Shown: in pieces, positions 4,601-32,048 of the stretch
Layout: every line of letters begins with the position of its first letter
Numbering within the stretch: position 1 is the stretch's first letter
NCBI GenBank assembly: GCA_029582155.1
Contig: CM055895.1
Coordinates: 9,371,544 to 9,435,543 of the forward strand
Direction: 5' to 3'
Length of the DNA: 64,000 bases
Source of the DNA: Panopea generosa
Taxonomy: Eukaryota; Mollusca; Bivalvia; Adapedonta; Hiatellidae
Translations under genes and position numbers: made by a program
Notes under the pieces: generated by a model
Seen by the model: the letters and a program-made list of their open reading frames with translations, nothing else
Databases searched by the model: none
What the model was told of the DNA's origin: nothing

Positions 4601-5964
4601 GATACCTTAATACATTAAAAAGAAAACAACGGTAACGATCTAAATTGAACTGTTTGCACAGGTAACAATTATTGTACATATTATAGCAGTATCCAAGTAA
4701 ATATAATGCATCCATTATTCAAAACTCAAAATACACTTCAAAATATAAATTTAAAACGGGCTGTTTCCACTCATCTCACTCGACATTGTTTGCCTAATGG
4801 AATGTTGGTAGGCCCAAACAATCTTGGACCCTTTTCGTATTTGTCTCCATTATACCAAATATATTATTTCATCTCAGAGGTTATTATGTTTTTAAACAAA
4901 TTATGTGTTTTCTAGAAATACATTTCCGTTTAACGAAGATAGGGTTCGTCTGATAAAAATGGTCGTATAAAACCATTTCTTGCTCAATATACATAGAACA
5001 GTGAAGACTATGGCTATGGCATATTTCTCGAAATCTGAAACGCTTGAAAAAGGAAGTTGACAAAACGGAGTCACTGTTAAAATCACTTTACCATTATAAT
5101 AATACAAATACATAAATATAGGTATTAAGAAGCAGTTTCCTCCTTCAATAATCAGATTTAGTCTTTAACTTGACAAATCCTATTACAATGTATATGTTTC
5201 TTGTGGGTATTGACAGATACGCTTTGTATCAATTTCCTCTTACCACTGTGTGAGAAATTGCGCACAATAACGACAATGCATGTGTACTAATTTAATGACG
5301 CACGTTAAAAAATAGCGTTATAAATCATTATAGAAAATGTGCTTTAACCATGATTTAATTGCTATAACAAAACATTGTCAAGCGGATATCCACTGGGTGT
5401 ATATTGGCCTATGCGGCTCAGGTTGTCTAAAACATTCTAGAAGCATATCAGCTATTAACAGATTGAATTGCCATACTGTATGGATAACGTTAATTTCTTT
5501 AGAGAATTTCAGAACCTCATAAAACCTTTTATAACAAATGAATTAATGTGCTTAACATTATTACTTTCATAAGTTCAAAATGTTCATACTAGCACAGTTG
5601 CAAATATTAACATATTAAGGTCGTATCCAAAAAAGACGTTAATCACAGTAAAGTATTGTTTATGCATGTGCATGTGCATTAAGAATTATTTGGTTTCTGA
5701 AAAAGTAATATTTACAAAATGCATACTCTCAAAAATGATATTGCTAAATTTATAATACAATATGATTTGTAGAATATAAACGCATTGATGACATGTGTGA
5801 GTTACGTCTTTTAACAAAAGAACCCCAGCCAGACATTGCTGTTATAAAATACTGATTACCTCTATTCAAACATCTGAATTTAATAATTTTCAATAAAGTT
5901 CCAAATTTCAAAAAAACGACAAAAGTATGACCACATATTTAATTATAAATTACCGTAACAACAT
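4601..5964. other. No gene recognised
   Basis: AT-rich sequence with only short chance frames. Nothing is recognised up to the start of the 52-bp minisatellite. Confidence 0.6.
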
Positions 5965-8900
5965 TACAAATACAAAAACAGCGGCGATTCAACAAAGGTC
6001 ACTAATGTGACAACATTACAAATACAAACACTGGGAGTTTCAACAAAAGTCACAACTATGACAACATTACAAATAAAAACACTGGGAGTTTCAACAAAGG
6101 TCACTTATGTCACAACATAACACATATAAACACTTGGAGATTCAACAAAGGTCACTAAGGTCACAACAGCACAAATACAAACACTAGCCTAAGGGAGTTT
6201 CAACAAAGGTCACGTCACTTATGTCACAACATCACAAATATCAACACTGGGGAGTTTCAACAAAGTTCACTTAAGTCACAATATCACAAATGCAAGCACT
6301 GGGAGTTTCAGCAAAGGAAACTTAAGCCACAACATCACAAATGCAAACACTGGGAGTTTCAACAAAGGTCACTTATGTCACAACATCACAAATGCAAACA
6401 CTCGGGAGTTTCAACAAAGGTCATTTATGTCACAATATCACGAATACAAACATTGGGAGTTTCAACTAATGTCACTTATGTCACAATATCACAAATACAA
6501 ATACTTCGGAGATTCAACAAAGGTCACTTATGTCACAACAACACAAATACAAACACTGGGGAGTTTCAACAAAGGTCACTAATGCCACATTATTACAAAT
6601 ACAAACACTGGGGAGTTTCATCAAAGGTCACTAATACCACAATTTCACAAATACAAACACTGGGGAGTTTCAACTAACGTCACTTATGTCACAACATCAC
6701 AAATACAAACACTAGCCTAAGGGAGTTTCAACAAAGGTCAATAATGTCACAACATCACAAATACAAACACTGGGGAGATTCAACAAAGGTCACTTATGCC
6801 ACAATATCACAAATACAAACACTGGGGAGTTTCAACAAAGGTCACTTAAGTCACAATATCACAAATGCAAGCACTGGGAATTTCAGCAAAGGAAACTTAA
6901 GCCACAACATCACAAATACAAACACTGGGAGTTTCAACAAATGTCACTTATGTCACAACATTACAAATACAAACACTGGGAGATTCAACAAAGGTCACTT
7001 ATGTCACAATATCACAAATGCAAACACTGGGAGATTCAACAAAGGTCACTTATGTCACAATATCACAAATGCAAACACTGGGAGTTTCAACAAAGGTCAA
7101 TTATGTCACAACATCACAAATACAAACACTGGGGAGTTTCAACAAAGGTCACTTATGTCATAATATTACAAATGCAAACACCCGGGAGTCTCAACAAAGG
7201 TCATTTATGTCACAACATCACGAATACAAACATTGGGAGTTTCAACTAATGCCACTTATGTCACAATATCACAAATACAAATACTTGGGAGATTCAATAA
7301 AGGTCACTTATGTCACAACAGCACAAACACAAAAACTAGGGAGTTTCAACAAAGGTCACTAATGCCACATTATTACAAATACAAACACTGGGGAGTTTCA
7401 TCAAAGGTCACTAATGCCACAATATCACAAATACAAACACTGGGGAGTTTCAACTTACGTCACTTATGTCACAACATCACAAATACAAACACTGGGTGAT
7501 TCAACAAAGATCACTTATGTCACAACATCACAAATACAAACACTAGCCTAAGGGAGTTTCAACAAAGGTCAATAATGTCACATCATCACAAATACAAACA
7601 CTGGGGAGATTCAACAAATGTCACTAATGCCACAATATCACAAATACAAACACTGGGGAGTTTCAACAAAGGTCACTTATTTCTCAATGTCACAAATACA
7701 AACACTGAGGAGTTTCAACAAAGGTCACTAATATCTCAATATCACAAATACAAACACTGGGGAGTTTCAACAAAGGTCACTAATGCCACAATATCACCAA
7801 TACAAACACTGGAGAGTTTCAACAAAGGTCACTTATGTCACAATATCACGAATACAAACATTTGAAGTTTCAGAAAAGGTCACTTATGTCACAACATCAC
7901 AAATACAAACACTGGGGAGTTTCAACAAAGGTCACTTATGTCACAACATTACAAATACAAACACTGGGAGTTTCATCAAAGGTCACTTATGTCACAATAT
8001 CACAAATACAAACACTGGGAGTTTTAACAAAGGTCAATAATGTCACAATATCACAAATGCTAACACTCGGGAGTTTCAACAAAGGTCACTTATGTCACAG
8101 CTTCACAAATACAAACACTACCCTAAGGGAGTTTAAACAAAGGTCACTAATGCCACAACATCACAAATACAAACAGTAGCCTAAGGGAGTTTAAACAAAG
8201 GTCATTTAATTCACAACATCACAAATACAAGCACTGGGAGTTTCAACAAAGGTAACTTATGCCACAATATCACAAATACAATCACTGGGGAGTTTCAACA
8301 AAGGTAACTTATGCCACAATATCACAAATACATTCACTGGGGAGTTTCAATAAAGGTCACTTATGTCACAATATCACAAATACAAACACTGGGAGTTTCA
8401 ACAAAGGTCACTTATGTCACAATATCACAAATGCAAACACTCGGGAGTTTCAGAAAAGGTCACTTATGTCACAACATCACAAATACAAACATTGGGAGTT
8501 TCAACTAATGTCACTTATGTCACAATATCACAAATACAAACACTGGGGAGATTCAACAAAGGCCACTAATGTCACAACAGCACAAATACAAAATTAGGGA
8601 GTTTCAACAAAGGCCACTAATGCCATATTATCACAAATACAATTACTGGGGAGTTTCAACAAAGGTCACTTATGTCACATTATCACAAATACAAACACTG
8701 GGGAGTTTCAACAAAGGTCACTAATGCCACAATGTCACAAATACAAACACTGGGGAGTTTCAACTAAGGTCACTAATGCCACAACATCACAAATACAAAC
8801 ACTAGCCTAAGGGAGTTTCAACAAACGTCAATAATGTCACAACATCACAAATACAAACACTGGGGAGATTCAACAAAGGTCACTAATGCCACAATATCAC

Positions 8901-9030
8901 AAATACAAACACTGGGGAGTTTGCACAAAGGTTACTAATGTCTCAATGTCACAAATGCAAACACTGGGGAGTTTCAATAAAGGTCACTAACGTCACAATA
9001 TCACCAATACAAACACAGGAGAGTTTCAAC
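5965..9030. repeat. 52-bp minisatellite, about 59 copies, with higher-order structure
   Basis: The unit reads roughly 'cactggggagtttcaac', 'aaaggtcacttatgtcac', 'aatatcacaaatacaaa'. A variant with an extra 'tagcctaa' before 'gggagtttcaac' recurs near 6180, 6710, 7540, 8175 and 8805. The variant order around 6240-6600 recurs about 780 bp (15 units) later and again near 8440-8640, so blocks of units were duplicated together. Because 52 is not a multiple of three, every frame rotates through the same three peptide phases. The many open frames of about 65-139 codons here are therefore by-products and not genes. Confidence 0.95.
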
Positions 9031-12000
9031 TGTAATGATTCTGTATAGATACAGTATGTGTACTGTACTATGATGAATCTATATAGATACAGATAGCATA
9101 CTGTACCATGATGATTTTATATAGATACAGTGTTCATACTGTACTAATATGATTCTATATAGATACAATGTTTGTACTTTACTATGAAGATTATGTATAG
9201 ATACAGTATGTGTACTGTACTATGATGATTCTATATATAATTAGTGTGTTTACTGTGCTATGATGATTCTTTATAGATGCAGTGTGTGTACTATGCTATG
9301 AAAACTCTATATAGATACAGTATGTGTACTGTACTATGATGATTCTATATAGATACAGTGTGTGCACTGTAATATGAGATACAGTTTGTGTGTTGTACTG
9401 TGTTGATTCTATATAGATACATTGTTCATACTATACTATGATGATTCTATATTTATTCAATGATTATAGTGTACTATGTTGTTTTTATATAGAAACGATA
9501 TTGGTTATGCACTATGATGATTATATATAATTAAGTGCTTTGTAATGTACTATAATGTTTCTATAAAGATACAGTATGTTTACTGTAGTATGGTGATTCT
9601 ATATAGATACAATATGTTTACTGTGCTAATGGGATTCTATATAGATGCAGTATGTTAACTGTACTATGGGGATTCTATATATATATATACAGTATGTTAA
9701 CTGTACTATGATGATTCTATATATATACTGCTTTGATGATTCTATATAGATACATTGTTTGTAATGTACTATGATGATTCTTTATATATAGTGCTATGAT
9801 GATTCTATATAGATACAGTATGTGTACTGTGCTATGATGATTCTATATAGATATAGTATGTGTTCAGTGCTATGAAAATTCTATATAGATACAGTGTGTA
9901 GTTTGTGCTATGATGATTCTATATAGATACAATGTGTGTTCAGTGCTATAGATACATGTATGTGTATTGTCCTATGATGATTCTATATAGATACAGTATG
10001 TTAACTGTACTATGGGGATTCTCTATATATACAGTATGTTTACTGTACTATGATGGTTCCATATATATACTGCTTTGATGATTCTATATAGATACAATGT
10101 TTGTAATGTACTATGATGATTCTATATAGATAGTGCTATGATGATTATATATAGACACAGTATGTGTACTATGCTATGATGATTCTATGTAGATACAATA
10201 TGTGTACTGTGCTATGATAATTCTATATAGATACAGTGTGTATACTATACTATGATGATTATATATAGATACAATGTGTGTACAGTGCTATAGATACACA
10301 TATGTGTATTGTACTATGATGATTCTATATAGATACAGTGTGTGTATTGTAATATGATGATTTTATAAAGATACAGTGTGTGTACTGTGTTATGATGATT
10401 CTATATAGATACAGTGTGTGTACTGTGCAATTATGATTCTATAAAGATACAATATGTGTACAGTGCTATAGATACATGTTTGTGAATTGTGCTATGATGA
10501 TTCTATATAGATACAGTGTTTGTACTTTGCTATGATGATTTAATATAGATACAATGTGTGTACAGTGCTATAGATACATGTTTGTGTTTTGTGCAATGAT
10601 GATTCTATATAAATACAGTGTATGTACTGTGCTATGATGATTCTATATAGATACAGTGTGTGTATTGTATTATGCTGATTCTATAAAGAAACAGTGTGTG
10701 CACTGTGCTATGATGATTCAATATAGATACATTGTGTGTACTGTACTAAGATGATTATGTATAGATACAGTGTGTGTACTGTGCTATGGTGATCTATATA
10801 GATACACTGTGTGTACTGTACTATGATGTTTCTGTATATATACAGTGTGTGAACTGTGCTATGCTGATTTTGTATAGATACAGTGTGTGTACTGAACTAT
10901 GATGATTCTGTATAGATATAGTGTGTGTACTATACTATGATGATTCTGCATAGACACAGTGTGTGAACTGTGCTATGATGATTTTGTATAGCTACAGTAT
11001 GTGTACTATGCTAAGATGATTCTATATAGATACAGAGTGTATACTGTGCTATGATGATTCTGTATAGATACAGAGTGTATACTGTGCTATGATGATTCTA
11101 TATAGATACAATGTGTGTACATGCTATAAATACATGTATGTGTATTGTGCTATGATGATTCTATATAGATACAGTGTGTGTAATGTACTATGATGATTCT
11201 TTAATGATACAGTGTGTGTACTGTACTATGATGATTTGATATAGATACAGTGTTTATACTGTACTATGATGATTCTATATACAATAAGAGACCACCTGCT
11301 TTAAGAGCCCACTTTTCAGATTTCCTTTTAATGGTCTCTTAAGACAGGTTTGACTATATATACAATGTTTGAACTGTACTATGCTGATTCTATATAGAAA
11401 CGATGTGGGTTCTGCACTATGATGATAATATATATTACAGTGCTGTGTACTGTACTATAATGTTTTATAAAGATACAGTATGTTTACTGTACTATGGTGA
11501 TTCTATATAGAAACAGTATGTTTACTCTACTAATGGGATACTATATAGATACAGTATGTTAACTGTACTATGGGAATTGTATGTATATACAATATATTAC
11601 CTGTACTATGGTGATTCTTTATATATACTGATTTGATGATTCTATATAGATACAGTGTTTGTAATGTACTATGATGATTTTATATAGATATTGCTATGGT
11701 GATTCTATAAAGATACAGTATGTGTACTGTGTTATGATGATTCTATAGAGATACAGTATGTGTACTGTGCTATGATGATTCTATAATACAAATTGTTAGA
11801 ACTGTACTACAAGGATGCTATATAGATACAGTGTGTGTACTGTACTATGATAAATCTATATAGAACGTGTGTGTACTGTGCTATGATGATTCTATATAGA
11901 TACTGTGTGTGTACTGTACTATGATGATTCGATATAGATAAAGTGTGTATGTACTGTGCTAGGATGATTCTATATAGATACAGTGTGTGTACTGTGCTTT

Positions 12001-12835
12001 GATAATTATATATAGATACAGTATGTGTACTGTACTATGATGGTTCTATATAGATACAGTGTGTTTTGTATTATGATGATTCTATATAGCTACAGTATGT
12101 TTACTGTACTATGATTGTTCTATATAGAAACGATGAGGGTTCTGCACTATGATGATTATATATAATGCAGTGCTGTGAACTGTACTGTGGTGATTCGATA
12201 TAGATATAGTGTGTGTGTACTGTGCTATGATGATTCTATATATATATACAGTGTGTGTACTGTACTATGATAATTATATATAGATACAGTATGTGTACTG
12301 TACTATGATGGTTCTATATAGATACAGTGTGTGTTCCGTATTATGATGATTTTATATAGCTACAGTTTGTTCACTGTACTATGTTTGTTTTATATAGAAA
12401 CGATGAGGGGTTCTGCACTATGATGATTATATATAATGCAGTGATGTGTACTGTACTATGGTCATCCTGTAATCCATAATGTGTTTGTATTGTACTGTGA
12501 TGATACTATATAGATACAGCGTGTGTACTGTACTATGATGATCTATATAGATACAGTGTGTGTACTGTACTGTGATGATTCTATATAGATACAATGTTAG
12601 AACTGTTCTATAATGATTATACATTATACAGTTAGTGTACTGTACTGTATTGATACTATATAGATACAGTGTTTGTACTGCATTATGATGATTCTATATA
12701 GATATAGAGTGTGTACTGTTGTATGTTGATTCTATATAGATATAGTATGTGTACTGTACTATGATTATTCTATTTATATTCAGTGTTTGTACTGTACTGT
12801 GATAAATCTATATAGATACTCTGCGTCTATTGTCT
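9031..12835. repeat. About 36-39-bp minisatellite, roughly 100 degenerate copies
   Basis: The unit reads roughly 'tgtgtactgtactatgatg', 'attctatatagatacag'. Copies are imperfect and spacing varies by small indels. It abuts the 52-bp array directly at about 9030 with no spacer. Some copies lack parts, and a 'gctatagatacatgtatgt' variant recurs near 9940, 10280, 10460, 10560 and 11120. A short foreign palindromic insert lies at 11285-11341. No coding content is seen. Confidence 0.93.
11275..11360. mobile_element. Short dispersed palindromic element inside the minisatellite
   Basis: It interrupts the array. Its arms are taagagacca (11285-11294) and tggtctctta (11332-11341), perfect 10-bp inverted repeats, followed by 'agacaggtttgact'. 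A longer relative with 'acctctattaag' and 'cttaagacaggttaactgta' lies at about 30345-30490. I recall similar 'cttaagacaggtt' repeats being widespread in invertebrate genomes, but the class is unknown to me. Confidence 0.5.
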
Positions 12836-15429: not shown

Positions 15430-16050
15430 TATCCTTATCTAGAAGCAAAAGAAGAATTAATAAGTGGTTTTAAAATTAATAAGTGGTTTTAATAACGGAT
15501 TTTCATTTGCATTATTATTGTCCAAGAAACTTTACTGTTTGTAAAACTTTGATTTCTGTAAAAGGTAATGAAAAACAAGCGTTGAATTTGTTACTTAAGG
15601 AAGTAGTTTTAAGTCGAATAGCGGACCCATTCGGATACAAACCCCTTTACAAATATAAGGCTGTCTCCCATCGGCATTGTGCCAACAAATGATAAAACCT
15701 TTAAATTAATACATCACTTGTCATATCCTCAAGAAGAAAGTGTTAACGATTTTATTGATAATAACTTATGCAGAGTTCATTACACATCTTTTGATAAAGC
15801 AGTTGAAATGGTCAGTTCACTTGGTCCGGCGGTATTATTTGGTAAAATGGACATTAAGACTGCATTTAGACTGCTACCTGTTAATCCACAGGACTTTGAT
15901 CTCTTAGGGTTTAGTCTAGGAAATAAATATTTTACTATAAATTTCTTCACATGGACTGTTCAATATCTTCGTAAAATTCTTCATTTTTTAAGAATGGGCA
16001 GTATTAACAAGAGCCAAATGTGGACAAGCCCTTCATTATTTTGACGATTT
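15430..16050 (+). pseudogene. Reverse transcriptase domain of the DIRS/Ngaro-like fossil
   Basis: Recognisable DIRS-type RT blocks include 'LIHHLSYPQEESVNDFID', 'YTSFDKAVEM', 'GKMDIKTAFRLLPVNP' and 'DLLGF'. In this group the enzyme copies element RNA into DNA together with an RNase H domain, which would follow at about 16.1-16.75 kb. It is part of the fossil element at 14.47-21.44 kb and is not a functional gene. Confidence 0.85.
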
Positions 16051-16749: not shown

Positions 16750-17500
16750 TTTGTAACGACCATTCGGTTTGCAAAAAATGCTTTGTAATGTAAAGTGTAA
16801 ACGCATTCATATTGAAGGTAAACTTAATAAGAAAACATGAACTTTCACGCAGGGAATGGGTTCGTTTATCTTTAGCAGTCAATACTAGAGAGGCTTATAA
16901 CACTTGAGAAAAAGCCTTTCAATTGTTTTAATAAATAATGTTTATGATGTTACTCAGAATTTCGTTATTAAGAAAATGGTTTCCGGTATGGAACGCTTTG
17001 ATAAGAGGGTTGACTTCAGATAACTAATTACCCCTGACTTGTTAAAACTATTTTTGAAGTAGTAATTTGCAGTTCTGTATATGAGTCCACATTGTTTTCA
17101 GCAGCGTTTGCGTTAGCATATTTTGGATTGTTAAGGGTTGGGGAAACTATTGCCGATTTTAAAAGTTTTTCTAGTCATGCTATATCTGTATCTGATGTAA
17201 AATTTACTATTGAGAATTCGGTCGTTGAGTTGCGTATTCTGCATTCGAAAACAGATCAATAAGACAAGGATACTTTGATCTCCCTGCAAGCATTAAAGTC
17301 TGCCTTATGTCCAGTCAGCCGTTTGAAAATTTAATTAAAACTCCGGCTTAATAAACCTGGGCAATTTGTGGCGGGCTAGTCACTAGATGTCAGTTTTGTT
17401 CAATTTTAAATAAGTTAAATAATATCACAACATAAGGAACTGATTCGAGTAAATATAAATCGTATTCTTTCCGCATTGGGCTCTAATTCTCAATTAAACG
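16750..17500 (+). pseudogene. Tyrosine recombinase region of the DIRS/Ngaro-like fossil
   Basis: The stretch near 17100-17260 encodes 'AYFGLLRVGETIADFKSF' and then 'RILHSKTDQ', typical of the catalytic core of the phage-integrase-type recombinase of DIRS elements. That enzyme inserts circular or linear DNA intermediates without target duplication. It lies downstream of the RT region in the expected order. Broken, old copy. Confidence 0.7.
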
Positions 17501-18014
17501 AGCCAATTGATGTTCCGTAGGATATTTCTTTATCAGAAATTGTTTTTGTACCAATATGATTGTTTTATTGTTGATGCCGATATAGGCAAACAGAGACATA
17601 TTCTTCTAGACACATTAGTGCCTAAAATACTGTAAAATGTAACAAACGTTGCTGTCGCCACCCTATTTTTTCATCTTCAGGAATTTATGACATTAGATAT
17701 ACGATACTCGTGGCATTATCGTGTTTTTAATATGAATAAACTATGTGTGCTGAAAATGTATGCTTGGCCATTATTCTGTTTAATGACTAAACCTCGTTGC
17801 TAAACTAAATTATTGGATGTTGCCAAACTTCTGTAAAAACGTGATGCCTCTTTTGGAATCAGTGTGAAGATTAGAATAGTAAATTCTATGAATTCTGCTT
17901 TAAACAATAATAAATATATTGACATTTATGGAATTAACTTCAGATCTGGAACAATAAGTGCATATTCTCAGTTTTTTCGATTTTGAATATGAACAATAGC
18001 GTCCGTATTTAAGA

Positions 18015-18198
18015 ATGAAACATACGTTACATGGGTTTTAATGGTCACTTTTATACCTATAGGTATACAACGCTCAGATATTATTCTTCAAGACTAATAT
18101 GTTAATCATGTGCAATGGCTTTGCGAAGCACTTACTAAGTAATTTTTAATAGCACTACAAAGTTTAAATGTAACATACGTTATGAAAACATACGTTAT
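18015..18198 (+). repeat. Cluster of 'aacatacgtta' motifs (left flank)
   Basis: Three copies of the 11-mer aacatacgtta occur here at 18020, 18172 and 18188 (approximate starts), two of them only about 16 bp apart, and a fourth exact copy lies in reverse at 18801-18811. CpG-containing words like this are rare in such AT-rich DNA. See the element entry at 18000-20640 for further, less exact copies. Confidence 0.7.
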
Positions 18199-18272
18199 CA
18201 AGAATGCGCCATCTGATGAAATACGGATAATGTCCGGTTAAGATTGTATAGGGTCCTGTTTTTTTTGTACAC

Positions 18273-18280
18273 TGACGTCA
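18273..18280. promoter_or_regulatory. CRE-type site (tgacgtca)
   Basis: A perfect CREB/ATF consensus octamer lies about 540 bp upstream of the decayed gene's start codon. It may have belonged to that gene's promoter. A single octamer is weak evidence. Confidence 0.3.
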
Positions 18281-18815
18281 TCAACAGAAATCGCTACTGT
18301 GATTTCAAGGCGCTAGCAATTTGAGTTTTGAAGAGAAACGAAACTATCAACCTCATGTCAGGTAAGAATCTACATCTTCACTCTAGTGATCGTTTTATGT
18401 GTAGTTATTTGTTTTTAAAGTTGTTAATGTATTTTTCTATGTTAATAGATAATGCAAATTTGTACTCTTAAGCACTTCGTTCAGATAAAGGGTCGTCTTA
18501 GGTAATGATACATACGTTTCTTATGGTAACGTATATTTCAACAAATAAATATCTATTCCTGACTATAATAATTTTGAAATTACAAAAATATCAAGGGTTT
18601 GTATAACTGTTTTGTCCAACTCGTTATATTTTATTAACAAAAAACGTAAAAGAAACTTGTTTTTTTAATAATGATTATTAAGCACTTAAATCATAATCAT
18701 TCAATAGAATACATATAACTCATTAGCTAAATGCAACTTGCATACGCAAGAAATTGTATTTTAAACATTTTATCTGGTACTGCCTTTATCAAGTTTCGGT
18801 AACGTATGTTTCAGA

Positions 18816-19781
18816 ATGCCGCTTTCACGAGCCGAGATATAGAGACGTTACCGAGAGCGCAAAATGTCTTTAGAAGGTGAGATGTTCCTCCAAATGGAAC
18901 GCAGAAGACAACAGAAGTACTACAAACATTCTTGCAAAACTGCTGATGAGATCCAGACAGCATACTAATCTCATCACAAGTAACACTGCATCCAATTGTT
19001 ATTTACTTCCGAGGAGAAGATGGAAGTCTACAGCATAATAGTTAAGTTGCAGTCTCTGACAATATGTTTCATCCCTCGAGTACAGTTTTGACTATAGTCC
19101 AGAAACTGTTTGATAAAGAAATCAATTTGCTGGCTGCGCCGAAATAAAGTATGTTCATTACTGGACAGACAGTCAGACGTCGCAATTTCGAAATACGTTC
19201 ATTTTCAATTCGATTGTAAACCATGAGAGTGAGTATGGTTGTCACGCCAAATGGAACTATTATGAAGCCGGGTTCGGCAAAAATGTGTATGATGGACTCG
19301 TGGGCACCGTTAAGCGCCCAACTGATGATACAGTGCGTTCAGAAAAGTGCACAACATAAAAATATGAAAGATTTGAATTTCTTTGTCACAAAAGAAGAAT
19401 GTGATGCAATGGCATTAAAATTGTAACAAGTATAAAATGACACCAGTCAAGGGTACATTGCAGTCAGGTTTAACATTGACAGATACTTTGCATACATGCA
19501 AAACGTCGTGCTACTGCGATGACTGTATTGGAAGCCGTATTTGTGACTCGTGGACTGTACGTGACACACAGATATCTAACAATAAAAATATTGAAAAATC
19601 CAGTTCAACAGTCACACGTTTCTGTGAAGGAGACTGCATTGCAGTTGTGTATGAAGGAGATTGGTATGTTGGCCATATTGCAGAGATAGATCCCGATGTT
19701 GACGGTTTCGATTACAAGGTTAGTTTCAAGCAGAAAAAGAAAGCACAGTTCCAGTGGCCCAGTAATGGGGATGTTGTCTGA
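18816..19781 (+). pseudogene. Decayed, internally shortened copy of an uncharacterised invertebrate multicopy gene
   Basis: The start 'MPLSRAEI', a stop codon, then 'RRYRERKMSLEGEM' resembles the N-terminus of a large uncharacterised protein family that I recall from molluscs and cnidarians, starting with MPxSxAEx(Q)RxYRER. About 120 codons further, at 19240-19345, 'WNYYEAGFGKNVYDGLVG' followed by TVKR matches the family's conserved W-x-[YF]-[FY]-E-x-G-x-G-K...DG-x-x-G-T-x-K-R block. The last part (19437-19781) has a Cys cluster 'TCKTSCYCDDCIGSRICDSW' and a C-terminal beta-rich block 'AVVYEGDWYVGHIAEIDPD' ending in FQWPSNGDVV. Full-length relatives are several times longer, so most of the middle is missing. 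An early stop, frame changes and the deletion make it a pseudogene. Function of the family is unknown to me; multicopy distribution and the motif-rich flanks suggest a mobile element protein. Confidence 0.65.
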
Positions 19782-20928
19782 CGTTGAGGAAATAGAGAGA
19801 TGTTACTCAACAGTAGAAATATAACACATTACGACATTTACGCAAGCAGACACATCATAATGCAACTGTACAACCCTTGTAATGATATGACATTTTAACG
19901 TGAATTGAAAGATACGTTACTGTAAATAATAGTTATAAACATTTCATCAATAGTCTAGAAAGAGCTAACGTCACAATCTTACTACATTTAAGTATTGACA
20001 AACAAAAGCTAAAATTATTTTGCTGTGTTCAACGCATCGTTTTCGTCAATATAATGGCCGTCCTTCACTACACGGTACTGTAACAAGTAATATATATTAC
20101 AATACGACTGCATAGACATTAATGTCATATCACTAAAAACAAGATATGCTTCTAGAAGAAATTGTTTTTTTCTTGAATGTTCTATAGCATATAAATATGT
20201 CGGCTATGTTTTACACATGTTTTATTTAATTTCTTAAAAATTGCAGATAGTTAAGTGTTTTTGAAACATACGTCACTATTCAGATACCTCTTCTTATCGA
20301 TCATGTTTTTGGCAAGCTTGACTCGATTGACTAATTTAGGAATTGCTAACTCAAGTTTGATTTTAAATAATTAGTTGTTAAAAGTTTTGCTCTAACATAC
20401 CAGAAAATCGTACAGGTACACGGTTTGAAAAGTTTAACAATATCTTGTTTGCGAAAGTTTTGGTGTTCTCATATAATATTTTTTTGTTCAATTTGTTCCG
20501 TTTGGTCTTGTGAACACACAGTGGTATGGCATAGGTCTATTCTTTGATGATGTGACATTTGTGTGGCGGGGTTGTTCTATCAAAAATATATTTGTTTACT
20601 ACAATAAACATTAATGGTGCTAATGAAACTTACGCTACTGACAAAATGATAATGCCTTTACTTAAATGTGTGTCATTCATAAACCAGAAAGAGATTGTTA
20701 AATTTATTTTGGAATAAAATCCTACAGACCCATAGCTTGAAGACGGGACATAATGAATTAAAAGTAAAAGAAGATGATTTTTCTTTTTTTTTCCAACCCA
20801 AAATGTTCTGTCTTATTGAGAAATAGCGTGGGGCAGTCGAAAGGTTTTAATACTTATATAAGGATCCCAACTGAACATTTAAATTTTCAGTTATATCAAT
20901 AATCTGACCTGCCGGTTAAGTACTGCAG

Positions 20929-21440
20929 ATGTCAGATTTAGAGTATGGATTGCGGGTTCTTCTACAATCTACATCTGCTGGTGTTAACCTTGGTTTTGAG
21001 AGAGGATCTGTCAATTTATGGTGGCAGGGAAAAGGCGGCATGAGATGGCATCAGGTAGAGAGAACAATTAAAATGCTGCTGACAGTGAGTGGTGGATCCT
21101 CCAAACATATTGGTTCTACACGTAGGCGGTAATGATATTGGATTGATTCCTGCTGCTGATTTAAGAAATAAATGACTTAATACCTGATGTACTGATCGTC
21201 TGGTCGCAAATTTGACCTCGGCTAGTGTGGCGGAATGAGCCGGACCATGAAGCTTTGGGAAAAAGTTAGGGTCAGGGTAAACAGTAAAGTTGCAACAAGA
21301 ACTCAGATTAAGTGGAGCCTATATCAAGTACCCGGAAATTGAAAAAGTGGATAAATGACTTTTCTGCGACGGAGTACATTTATTGGACCGGGTTAACCAA
21401 CTATTTCTAAATGGGCTGAAAGAATGGATTAACTGTTTTT
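20929..21440 (+). pseudogene. SGNH hydrolase-like domain of the DIRS/Ngaro-like fossil
   Basis: The stretch encodes 'NLWWQGKGGMRWHQVERTIK', then the block with GGNDIGLIPAADLR, and further on WSQ, WRNEPDHEALGK and a YIKYPE-like segment. These are the landmarks of the SGNH/GDSL hydrolase-like domain that I recall following the recombinase in Ngaro-type elements of vertebrates and molluscs. The GGND block carries the family's conserved Asn region. Its biological role in these elements is not established as far as I know. Broken, part of the fossil. Confidence 0.75.
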
Positions 21441-30948: not shown

Positions 30949-32048
30949 AGTGTGTCATTTAATGAAAATGCAACAAATCGAAGAGAACTCAGCAATCCGT
31001 GGGAAAATGATGAAATTACAATATTTGGAATCAGCAACATACGTATCCAAAACATAATATAGTGTGTCATTTAATGAAAATGCAACAAATTGAGAGAACT
31101 CAGCAATTCGTGGGAAAATGATGAAATTACAATATTTGGAATCAGCAACATACGTATCCAAAACACAACATAGTGTGTCATTTAATGAAAATGCAACAAA
31201 TCGAAGAGAACTCAGCAATCCGTGGGAAAATGATAAAATTCAGCAACACACGTATCCAAAACGTAACATTGTGTGTCATTAAATAAAAATGCAACAAGTC
31301 GAAGAGAACTCAGCAATCCGCGGGAAAATGATGAATTTACAATATTTGGAATCACCAACATACGTATCCAAAACATAACATAGTGTGTCATTTAATGAAA
31401 ATGCCACAAATCGAAGAGAAATCAGTAATCCGTGGGAAAATGATGAAATTACAATATTTGGAATCAGCAACATACGTATCCAAAACATAACATAGTGTGT
31501 CATTTAATGAAAATGCAACAAGTAGAAGAGAAATCAGCAATCCGTGGGAAAATGATGAAATTACAATATTTGGAATCAGCAACATACGTATCCAAAACAT
31601 AACATAGTGTGTCATTTAATGAAAATGCAACAAGTAGAAGAGAAATCAGCAATCCGTGGGAAAATGATGAAATTACAATACTTGGAATCAGCAACATACG
31701 TATCCAAAACATAACTTAGTGTGTCATTTAATGAAAATGCAACAAATCGAAGAGAACTCAGCAATCCGTGGGAAAATGATGAAATTACAATATTTGGAAT
31801 CAGCAACATACGTATCCTTAACATAACATAACATAACATAACATAACATAACATAACATAACATAACATAACATAACATAACATAACATAACATAACATA
31901 ACATAACATAACATAACATAACATAACATAATGGGTCATTTAATGAAAAAGCAACAAGTCGAAGAGAACTCAACAGTCCGTGGGAAAATGATGAAATTAC
32001 AATATTTGGAATCAGCAACATACGTATCCTAAACATAACATAGTGTGC
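30949..32048. repeat. 112-bp satellite, nine units
   Basis: Units begin 'agtgtgtcatttaatgaaaa' at about 30949, 31061, 31172, 31270, 31382, 31494, 31606 and 31718, with a last unit at 31931. Each ends 'cgtatccaaaacataacat'. Units 5-8 are almost identical, so amplification is fairly recent. The unit starting near 31172 is shortened to 98 bp. 112 is not a multiple of three, so the overlapping minus-strand frames of 63-105 codons are by-products. Confidence 0.95.
31819..31930. repeat. (ACATA)n pentanucleotide microsatellite inside the satellite
   Basis: About 22 perfect ACATA units sit exactly at a junction between two 112-bp satellite units, where every unit normally carries just 'acataacata'. 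It is therefore a slippage expansion of the unit's own end. Confidence 0.95.

Follow-up and report, generated by a model that had tools for sequence, protein, structure and literature searches.

Does the 11-mer AACATACGTTA, repeated around the remains of a gene in Panopea generosa, belong to a mobile element, and could the protein of this element bind it? The window, that is the whole 64,000-nucleotide stretch of contig CM055895.1 analysed here, holds five exact copies of the 11-mer, at 18019+, 18172+, 18187+, 18800− and, as a stray, 52974+. Dinucleotide shuffles of the window gave 0.08 copies on average (maximum 1; five copies in 0 of 100 shuffles). These numbers agree with the initial annotation, which had expected less than one exact copy and had counted four between 18.0 and 18.82 kb, three forward and one reverse just before an ATG. 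It had also announced about five diverged copies on both flanks; six were found, all at positions orthologous to sites of intact elements, and the one at 17641 falls outside the 18000 to 20640 then assigned to the block, because the real element runs from 17481 to 20828. The reading we favour, with a probability of roughly three in four, is that of a dead cut-and-paste transposon of Sola-like anatomy, whose RNase H-type transposase would dock on palindromic motif copies and dampen its own expression.

The block is a dead and decayed copy of a 4.85-kb cut-and-paste DNA transposon; its parts are given in Table 1. Aligned with L054, one of the intact copies described below, it shows 87.6% identity across 3,326 bases (K2P 0.136), and all ten of its motif sites are orthologous to L054 sites. 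The pieces previously recognised between the motif copies (an MPLSRAE-type start, a W-x-YYE-A-G-x-GK block, a Cys cluster and a C-terminal block) are indeed there, as separate pieces. With the deletion in the gene, the part around the first conserved Asp was lost, and this copy is therefore unable to code for the enzyme.

Table 1. Features of the window copy (positions in the window)
Feature	Position	Strand	Remark
Decayed DNA transposon	17481..20828	+	3,348 bp; ends from alignment to five intact copies
Left target site duplication TGGG	17477..17480	+	
Right target site duplication TGGG	20829..20832	+	
Left terminal inverted repeat, degenerate	17481..17497	+	CTCTAATTCTCAATTAA; intact relatives start CGCTATTTCTCAATAA
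Right terminal inverted repeat	20813..20828	-	exact CGCTATTTCTCAATAA
Motif site 1	17641..17651	+	two mismatches; orthologous to intact-element position 183
Motif site 2	18019..18029	+	exact
Motif site 3	18172..18182	+	exact
Motif site 4	18187..18197	+	exact; two mismatches in L054
Motif site 5	18509..18519	+	two mismatches; first of +/- pair
Motif site 6	18527..18537	-	one mismatch; second of +/- pair
Motif site 7	18800..18810	-	exact; 5 bp upstream of ATG at 18816
Transposase gene remnant	18816..19824	+	stops, frameshifts, 1,245-bp deletion with junction near 18927
Open piece	19117..19359	+	second conserved Asp and E-A-G-x-G-K...D block
Open piece	19419..19781	+	Cys cluster and C-terminal block
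Motif site 8	19909..19919	+	one mismatch
Motif site 9	20265..20275	+	one mismatch
Motif site 10	20627..20637	+	two mismatches

The genome (1,474,161,289 bases in 39 contigs) was searched with the 80-aa piece encoded by 19117-19359. At least 119 matches were obtained, 150 of 178 candidates being scored, and many lie in long open frames. The surroundings of the best protein matches were then read at 30 loci, the window's own copy included: 27 carry at least one motif site with at most one mismatch within 3.2 kb, and none was found at this distance and stringency in L037, L038 and L053. For alignment, five copies were taken whole, each with long open frames. They align end to end and all stop at the same two points, giving elements of 4,850-4,857 bp which, in all five cases, start with CGCTATTTCTCAATAA and finish with its reverse complement. 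Four are flanked by 4-bp duplications (ATCA, TTTA, TTAA and TTTA); the flanks of the fifth, L056, are TAGA and AGAA, which is no perfect duplication and speaks against the favoured reading. Aligning the flanks of other copies thus recovered the array, common termini and a target duplication around intact genes, as had been anticipated for a mobile element, and absence of the motif around intact copies, the outcome that would have told against it, did not occur. Exact 16-bp ends are found 49 times in the genome, with 11 pairs spaced 4,765-4,857 bp. Allowing one mismatch raised the total to 972 (39 for the reversed control), but a form of the end, CACTATTTCTCAATAA, sits inside an unrelated repeat in the three places read (L065-L067), and only the 49 exact ends were therefore counted.

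The five copies differ by 0.39-1.28% and hence moved recently. Each contains a single gene of 794-796 codons. Between these genes 15 synonymous and 33 non-synonymous differences were scored; the resulting pN/pS of 0.57 is no more than a weak sign of constraint, and counts against our reading.

L054 has seven exact motif sites, and nine with at most one mismatch; in 200 shuffles the means were 0.0 and 0.18, and the maxima 0 and 2. This is a genuine array, and the fact that it is conserved is informative. Sites follow each other in the order 183, 567, 720, 734 and 1076 on the plus strand, 1094 and 1441 on the minus strand, then the gene, itself devoid of sites with at most one mismatch, then 3924, 4274 and 4654 on the plus strand. 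The consensus of the ten, T-G-A/T-A-A-C-A-T-A-C-G-T-T-A-C, is close to a 14-bp palindrome, and TGAAACATACGTTAC, a 15-bp imperfect palindrome, occupies about ten fixed places across two non-coding arms. The site at 1441 lies 5 bp upstream of the start codon, as does its equivalent in the window copy; the arrangement before the start codon is the same in L049 and also in L068, where the site has two mismatches. The latter (C2:65787500-65788900) is a decayed, more distant relative with a pair of motifs facing each other upstream, and the spacing of this pair, about 1,065 bp, recurs in at least two further places on C2 among the motif matches listed.

A second subfamily, typified by L061, has kept much of this layout. 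The L061 protein, whose frame lacks the N-terminus, is 45% identical to that of L054. Its 3′ end was placed where seven other copies stop matching (six of the full-identity class, with ends within about 12 bases, and one local repeat). Paired ends of this type, with 0 and 2-3 mismatches to an end sequence of their own, were found on C2, C11, C12, C19 and C24, all five with perfect 4-bp duplications (TTTA, TGTA, ATTT, TATA and TGGT), and three copies measure 5.1-5.3 kb. The L061 3′ arm contains three sites with at most three mismatches to the 15-mer, a number reached by 0 of 300 shuffles. A variant, GATACWTACGTTAC, occurs 148 times in the genome, versus 45 for its reversed control; 100 of the 148 positions were listed, on contigs C1-C14 only. 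In the C12 copy its sites are 181+, 1061+, 1080−, 1405−, 4004+, 4175+ and 4515+, with L054 counterparts at 183+, 1076+, 1094−, 1441− and the three plus sites after the gene; by position, 1405 would thus be the equivalent of the L054 site preceding the start codon. Among the matches listed, the C2 and C11 copies have at least six of these seven sites (without 1405 and 1080, respectively). L054 sites 567 and 720 have no counterpart among the exact L061-type variants listed, a point against our reading. BLAST between the 3′ arms of L054 and L061 produced nothing better than E 0.09, and between the L054 5′ arm and the L061 3′ arm the matches below E 0.1 are found only around motif sites. Since the layout is kept where the 3′ arms can no longer be aligned, the arrangement of motifs appears to have persisted longer than the other non-coding sequence. 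On comparison of the copies, past mobility, the ends, the duplications, the array and a layout common to two subfamilies are demonstrated.

Other subfamilies gave mixed results. In L059, TACGTTAC is present twice in 841 bp, which none of 300 shuffles reached. Two results run against the favoured reading: TACGTTAC is missing from the 831 bp of L053 3′ flank, and neither motif form was found in the 954 bp of L060 5′ flank. L053, which stands for a third subfamily, has a repeated word of its own, near TAATGTTCGATAC, as judged by eye. L060 (C4:6782500-6786500) and L062 (C5:92329500-92333000) are distant members (26-28% identity) with a long extra C-terminal region, in which an ADG(D/N)CLP(A/S) stretch looks OTU-protease-like by eye; no Pfam match was obtained.

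The element encodes a single protein of about 795 aa. Four acidic residues are invariant in the six proteins compared: D448 (HMDFAENY), D534 (TDSPTSQYR), E566 and D575 (EAGHGK...DGxGG..KR). Their spacing is like that of DDE/D transposases and would fit an RNase H-type core; a crude average of propensity values places a strand immediately ahead of both D448 and D534, and a helix behind D575. The profile search for known folds that the initial annotation had suggested for intact proteins yielded nothing above cut-off in Pfam, NCBIfam or the PDB. The PDB search returned two weak, unrelated matches (E 0.49 and 1.1). In Pfam the best match, to bZIP_2, came from L053 (E 0.00047; its 20.6 bits fall short of the cut-off of 22.3), with no bZIP_2 match in L054. 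This borderline match may serve as a lead for the basic N-terminal region alone. Pattern searches of viral and prokaryotic contig collections gave 33 and 43 matches, none of which was confirmed by tblastn. Six peptide strings of the family were absent from the largely open-access literature searched.

Taken together, these features suggest the following scheme. The protein would act as an RNase H-type transposase, using D448, D534 and either D575 or E566. Its dimers would dock on the palindromes, perhaps via the basic, coiled-coil-like N-terminal region; docked dimers would bring the two element ends together, and the transposase would cut at the CGC/GCG ends. The site 5 bp upstream of the start codon would let the protein dampen its own expression. 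Subterminal binding sites are already known from several DNA transposons. In En/Spm, arm motifs vary by subfamily, and TNPA, a protein that the element itself encodes, binds them and is able to block transcription as well (PMC2613891); the present element likewise has short motifs repeated in its arms and differing between subfamilies, but En/Spm differs from it in its CACTA ends, its separate DNA-binding protein and, according to PMC12730594, its C(2)C and H(3-4)H signatures. The P element is comparable in that it has transposase-binding sites in its interior and subterminal repeats inside its inverted ends (PMC7776569, which also gives its 8-bp duplications); these duplications and a C/DxxH signature (PMC9587614) set it apart. 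By analogy, the motif copies are most likely places where the transposase docks, and we infer with good reason that the element's own protein would bind them.

The sites might instead be read by a host transcription factor driving the transposase gene. An ACGT core is typical of bZIP factors, and a site directly upstream of the start codon is found in intact copies as well as in the decayed copies L049 and L068. Sites lie in both arms, however, three of them 3′ of the stop codon in both subfamilies, and the motif flank varies by subfamily (TGAAAC versus GATAC) inside one and the same host genome, so that we consider a role as host-factor sites in place of transposase docking sites unlikely.

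To which kind of transposon does the family belong? The initial annotation had called the element undescribed, and this is now doubtful, as its anatomy (4-bp duplications, a candidate DDD-like triad, size and variable ends) matches published features of Sola. Sola elements encode a DDD-type transposase, make 4-bp duplications, measure 2-9 kb and carry inverted ends no shorter than 11 bp, with very variable termini (PMC10741241), and for Sola2 AT-rich 4-bp duplications, ends of 12-21 bp and an 888-aa transposase are given (PMC3627910). Here, 4-bp duplications were found at 10 of 11 insertions (the window copy, four of five L054-type and all five L061-type copies), the 4.85-kb length and exact 16-bp ends fall within the Sola ranges, and termini vary between subfamilies. 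Regarding the DDD feature, D448, D534 and D575 are invariant in six of six proteins, and E566 equally so. Unlike the present family, the Sola descriptions seen in these two sources make no mention of a palindrome array conserved in position.

Other superfamilies were tried. Kolobok and piggyBac have TTAA-specific duplications, as PMC9587614 also gives for piggyBac, and a C/DxxH signature between the second D and the last acidic residue is described in the same source. TTAA was found at one of 11 insertions, which led us to reject Kolobok and piggyBac, and C/DxxH in none of six proteins, D575 being taken as the last acidic residue, which led us to reject hAT, P, MuDR, Kolobok and Dada. With CMC, Kolobok/piggyBac and the C/DxxH group each failing on a tested feature, and Sola anatomy fitting, the family was filed as probably Sola-type on the basis of published descriptions, and not as a new kind. 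We regard as improbable a more far-reaching view, in which the family would be a DDE/D lineage outside all named superfamilies. In this view a basic, coiled-coil N-terminus would read ACGT-core palindromes set at conserved distances in the two arms, a single set of sites would serve both complex assembly and silencing of the element's gene, and the sites would have diverged in step with the protein among subfamilies of one genome. Membership of the CMC group (Chapaev) in place of Sola, which the 4-bp duplications and the CAC...GTG ends of the L061-type subfamily might evoke, is very improbable: Chapaev/CMC elements have 5′-CAC and GTG-3′ ends (PMC4079192) and CACTA/CMC transposases carry both C(2)C and H(3-4)H between the second D and the last acidic residue (PMC12730594), but the ends are CGC...GCG in the window's subfamily, and between residues 534 and 575 C(2)C occurs in none of six proteins and H(3-4)H in two of six, unaligned.

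Genome-wide, the bare 11-mer is not commoner than its reversed control (1149+1178 versus 1463+1488 occurrences), and denser arrays of it are found in an unrelated repeat family; it is not specific to the transposon. We gave it up as a genome-wide marker for the element, as its count is not above control and many of the clusters listed come from this other repeat. The 15-bp form, TGAAACATACGTTAC, does exceed its control (127 versus 35). Among 100 places listed for it, at least 85 are no more than 4.5 kb away from a gene-family match, 57 of the 119 matches being used for this comparison. Equal density of the motif elsewhere, which the initial annotation had named as a contrary outcome, was therefore observed for the 11-mer and not for the 15-mer. 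It is hardly probable that the transposon acquired a functionless motif from this repeat, even though the repeat, with ends TACACAGGTAAAAATGCC, accounts for at least 12 of 14 other array loci (L009-L022), since L054 gave no match above 80 bp at E 1e-10 to those loci, the motif context is unlike (TGAAACATACGTTAC versus, by eye, TTTAACATACGTTAAAC), and the transposon sites are spaced apart at positions kept between subfamilies. The repeat itself (L009-L017 and L019-L021, contig C1) has dense 11-mer arrays separated by 6-8 kb in several loci; no frame of at least 130 codons was found in five of six loci checked, and L010 has one of 140. L022 (C1:30046500-30051500) is a tandem-like 11-mer run with a period of about 62 bp, possibly a satellite.

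What was a protein family without Pfam, NCBIfam or PDB match can now be described as a mobile element whose ends are defined. In genome annotation, its proteins are best masked as transposases and kept out of host gene counts. Its subfamilies form a natural series, within one genome, for testing any joint change of putative transposase-binding sites and transposases. Should the family prove to be Sola, this superfamily would gain a conserved non-coding layout in the form of the array.

Finally, the insertion site was considered. With the joined flanks as query, 5 of 73 genome matches cross the join (70-72% identity, 68% for the one on C19), and these would be related host repeats without the 3.35-kb block. 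The five carry 16-85 bases more than the query, which counts against our reading; many other flank copies match in two pieces only, split at the join and about 50-66 bases apart. The block had been thought to split a DIRS-type element: the flanking ORF 15622-16044 does read like a DIRS-type reverse transcriptase by eye, but it has no Pfam match at E up to 1. The right-flank host repeat contains a short frame (20920-21129) that is SGNH-hydrolase-like by eye and has no Pfam match. Elsewhere in the window, long tandem arrays occupy 5958-12819 (a 52-bp unit in 5958-9030, units of 38/114 bp in 9035-12819), and a further array, at 31240-32047, has a 112-bp unit containing AACATACGTAT.
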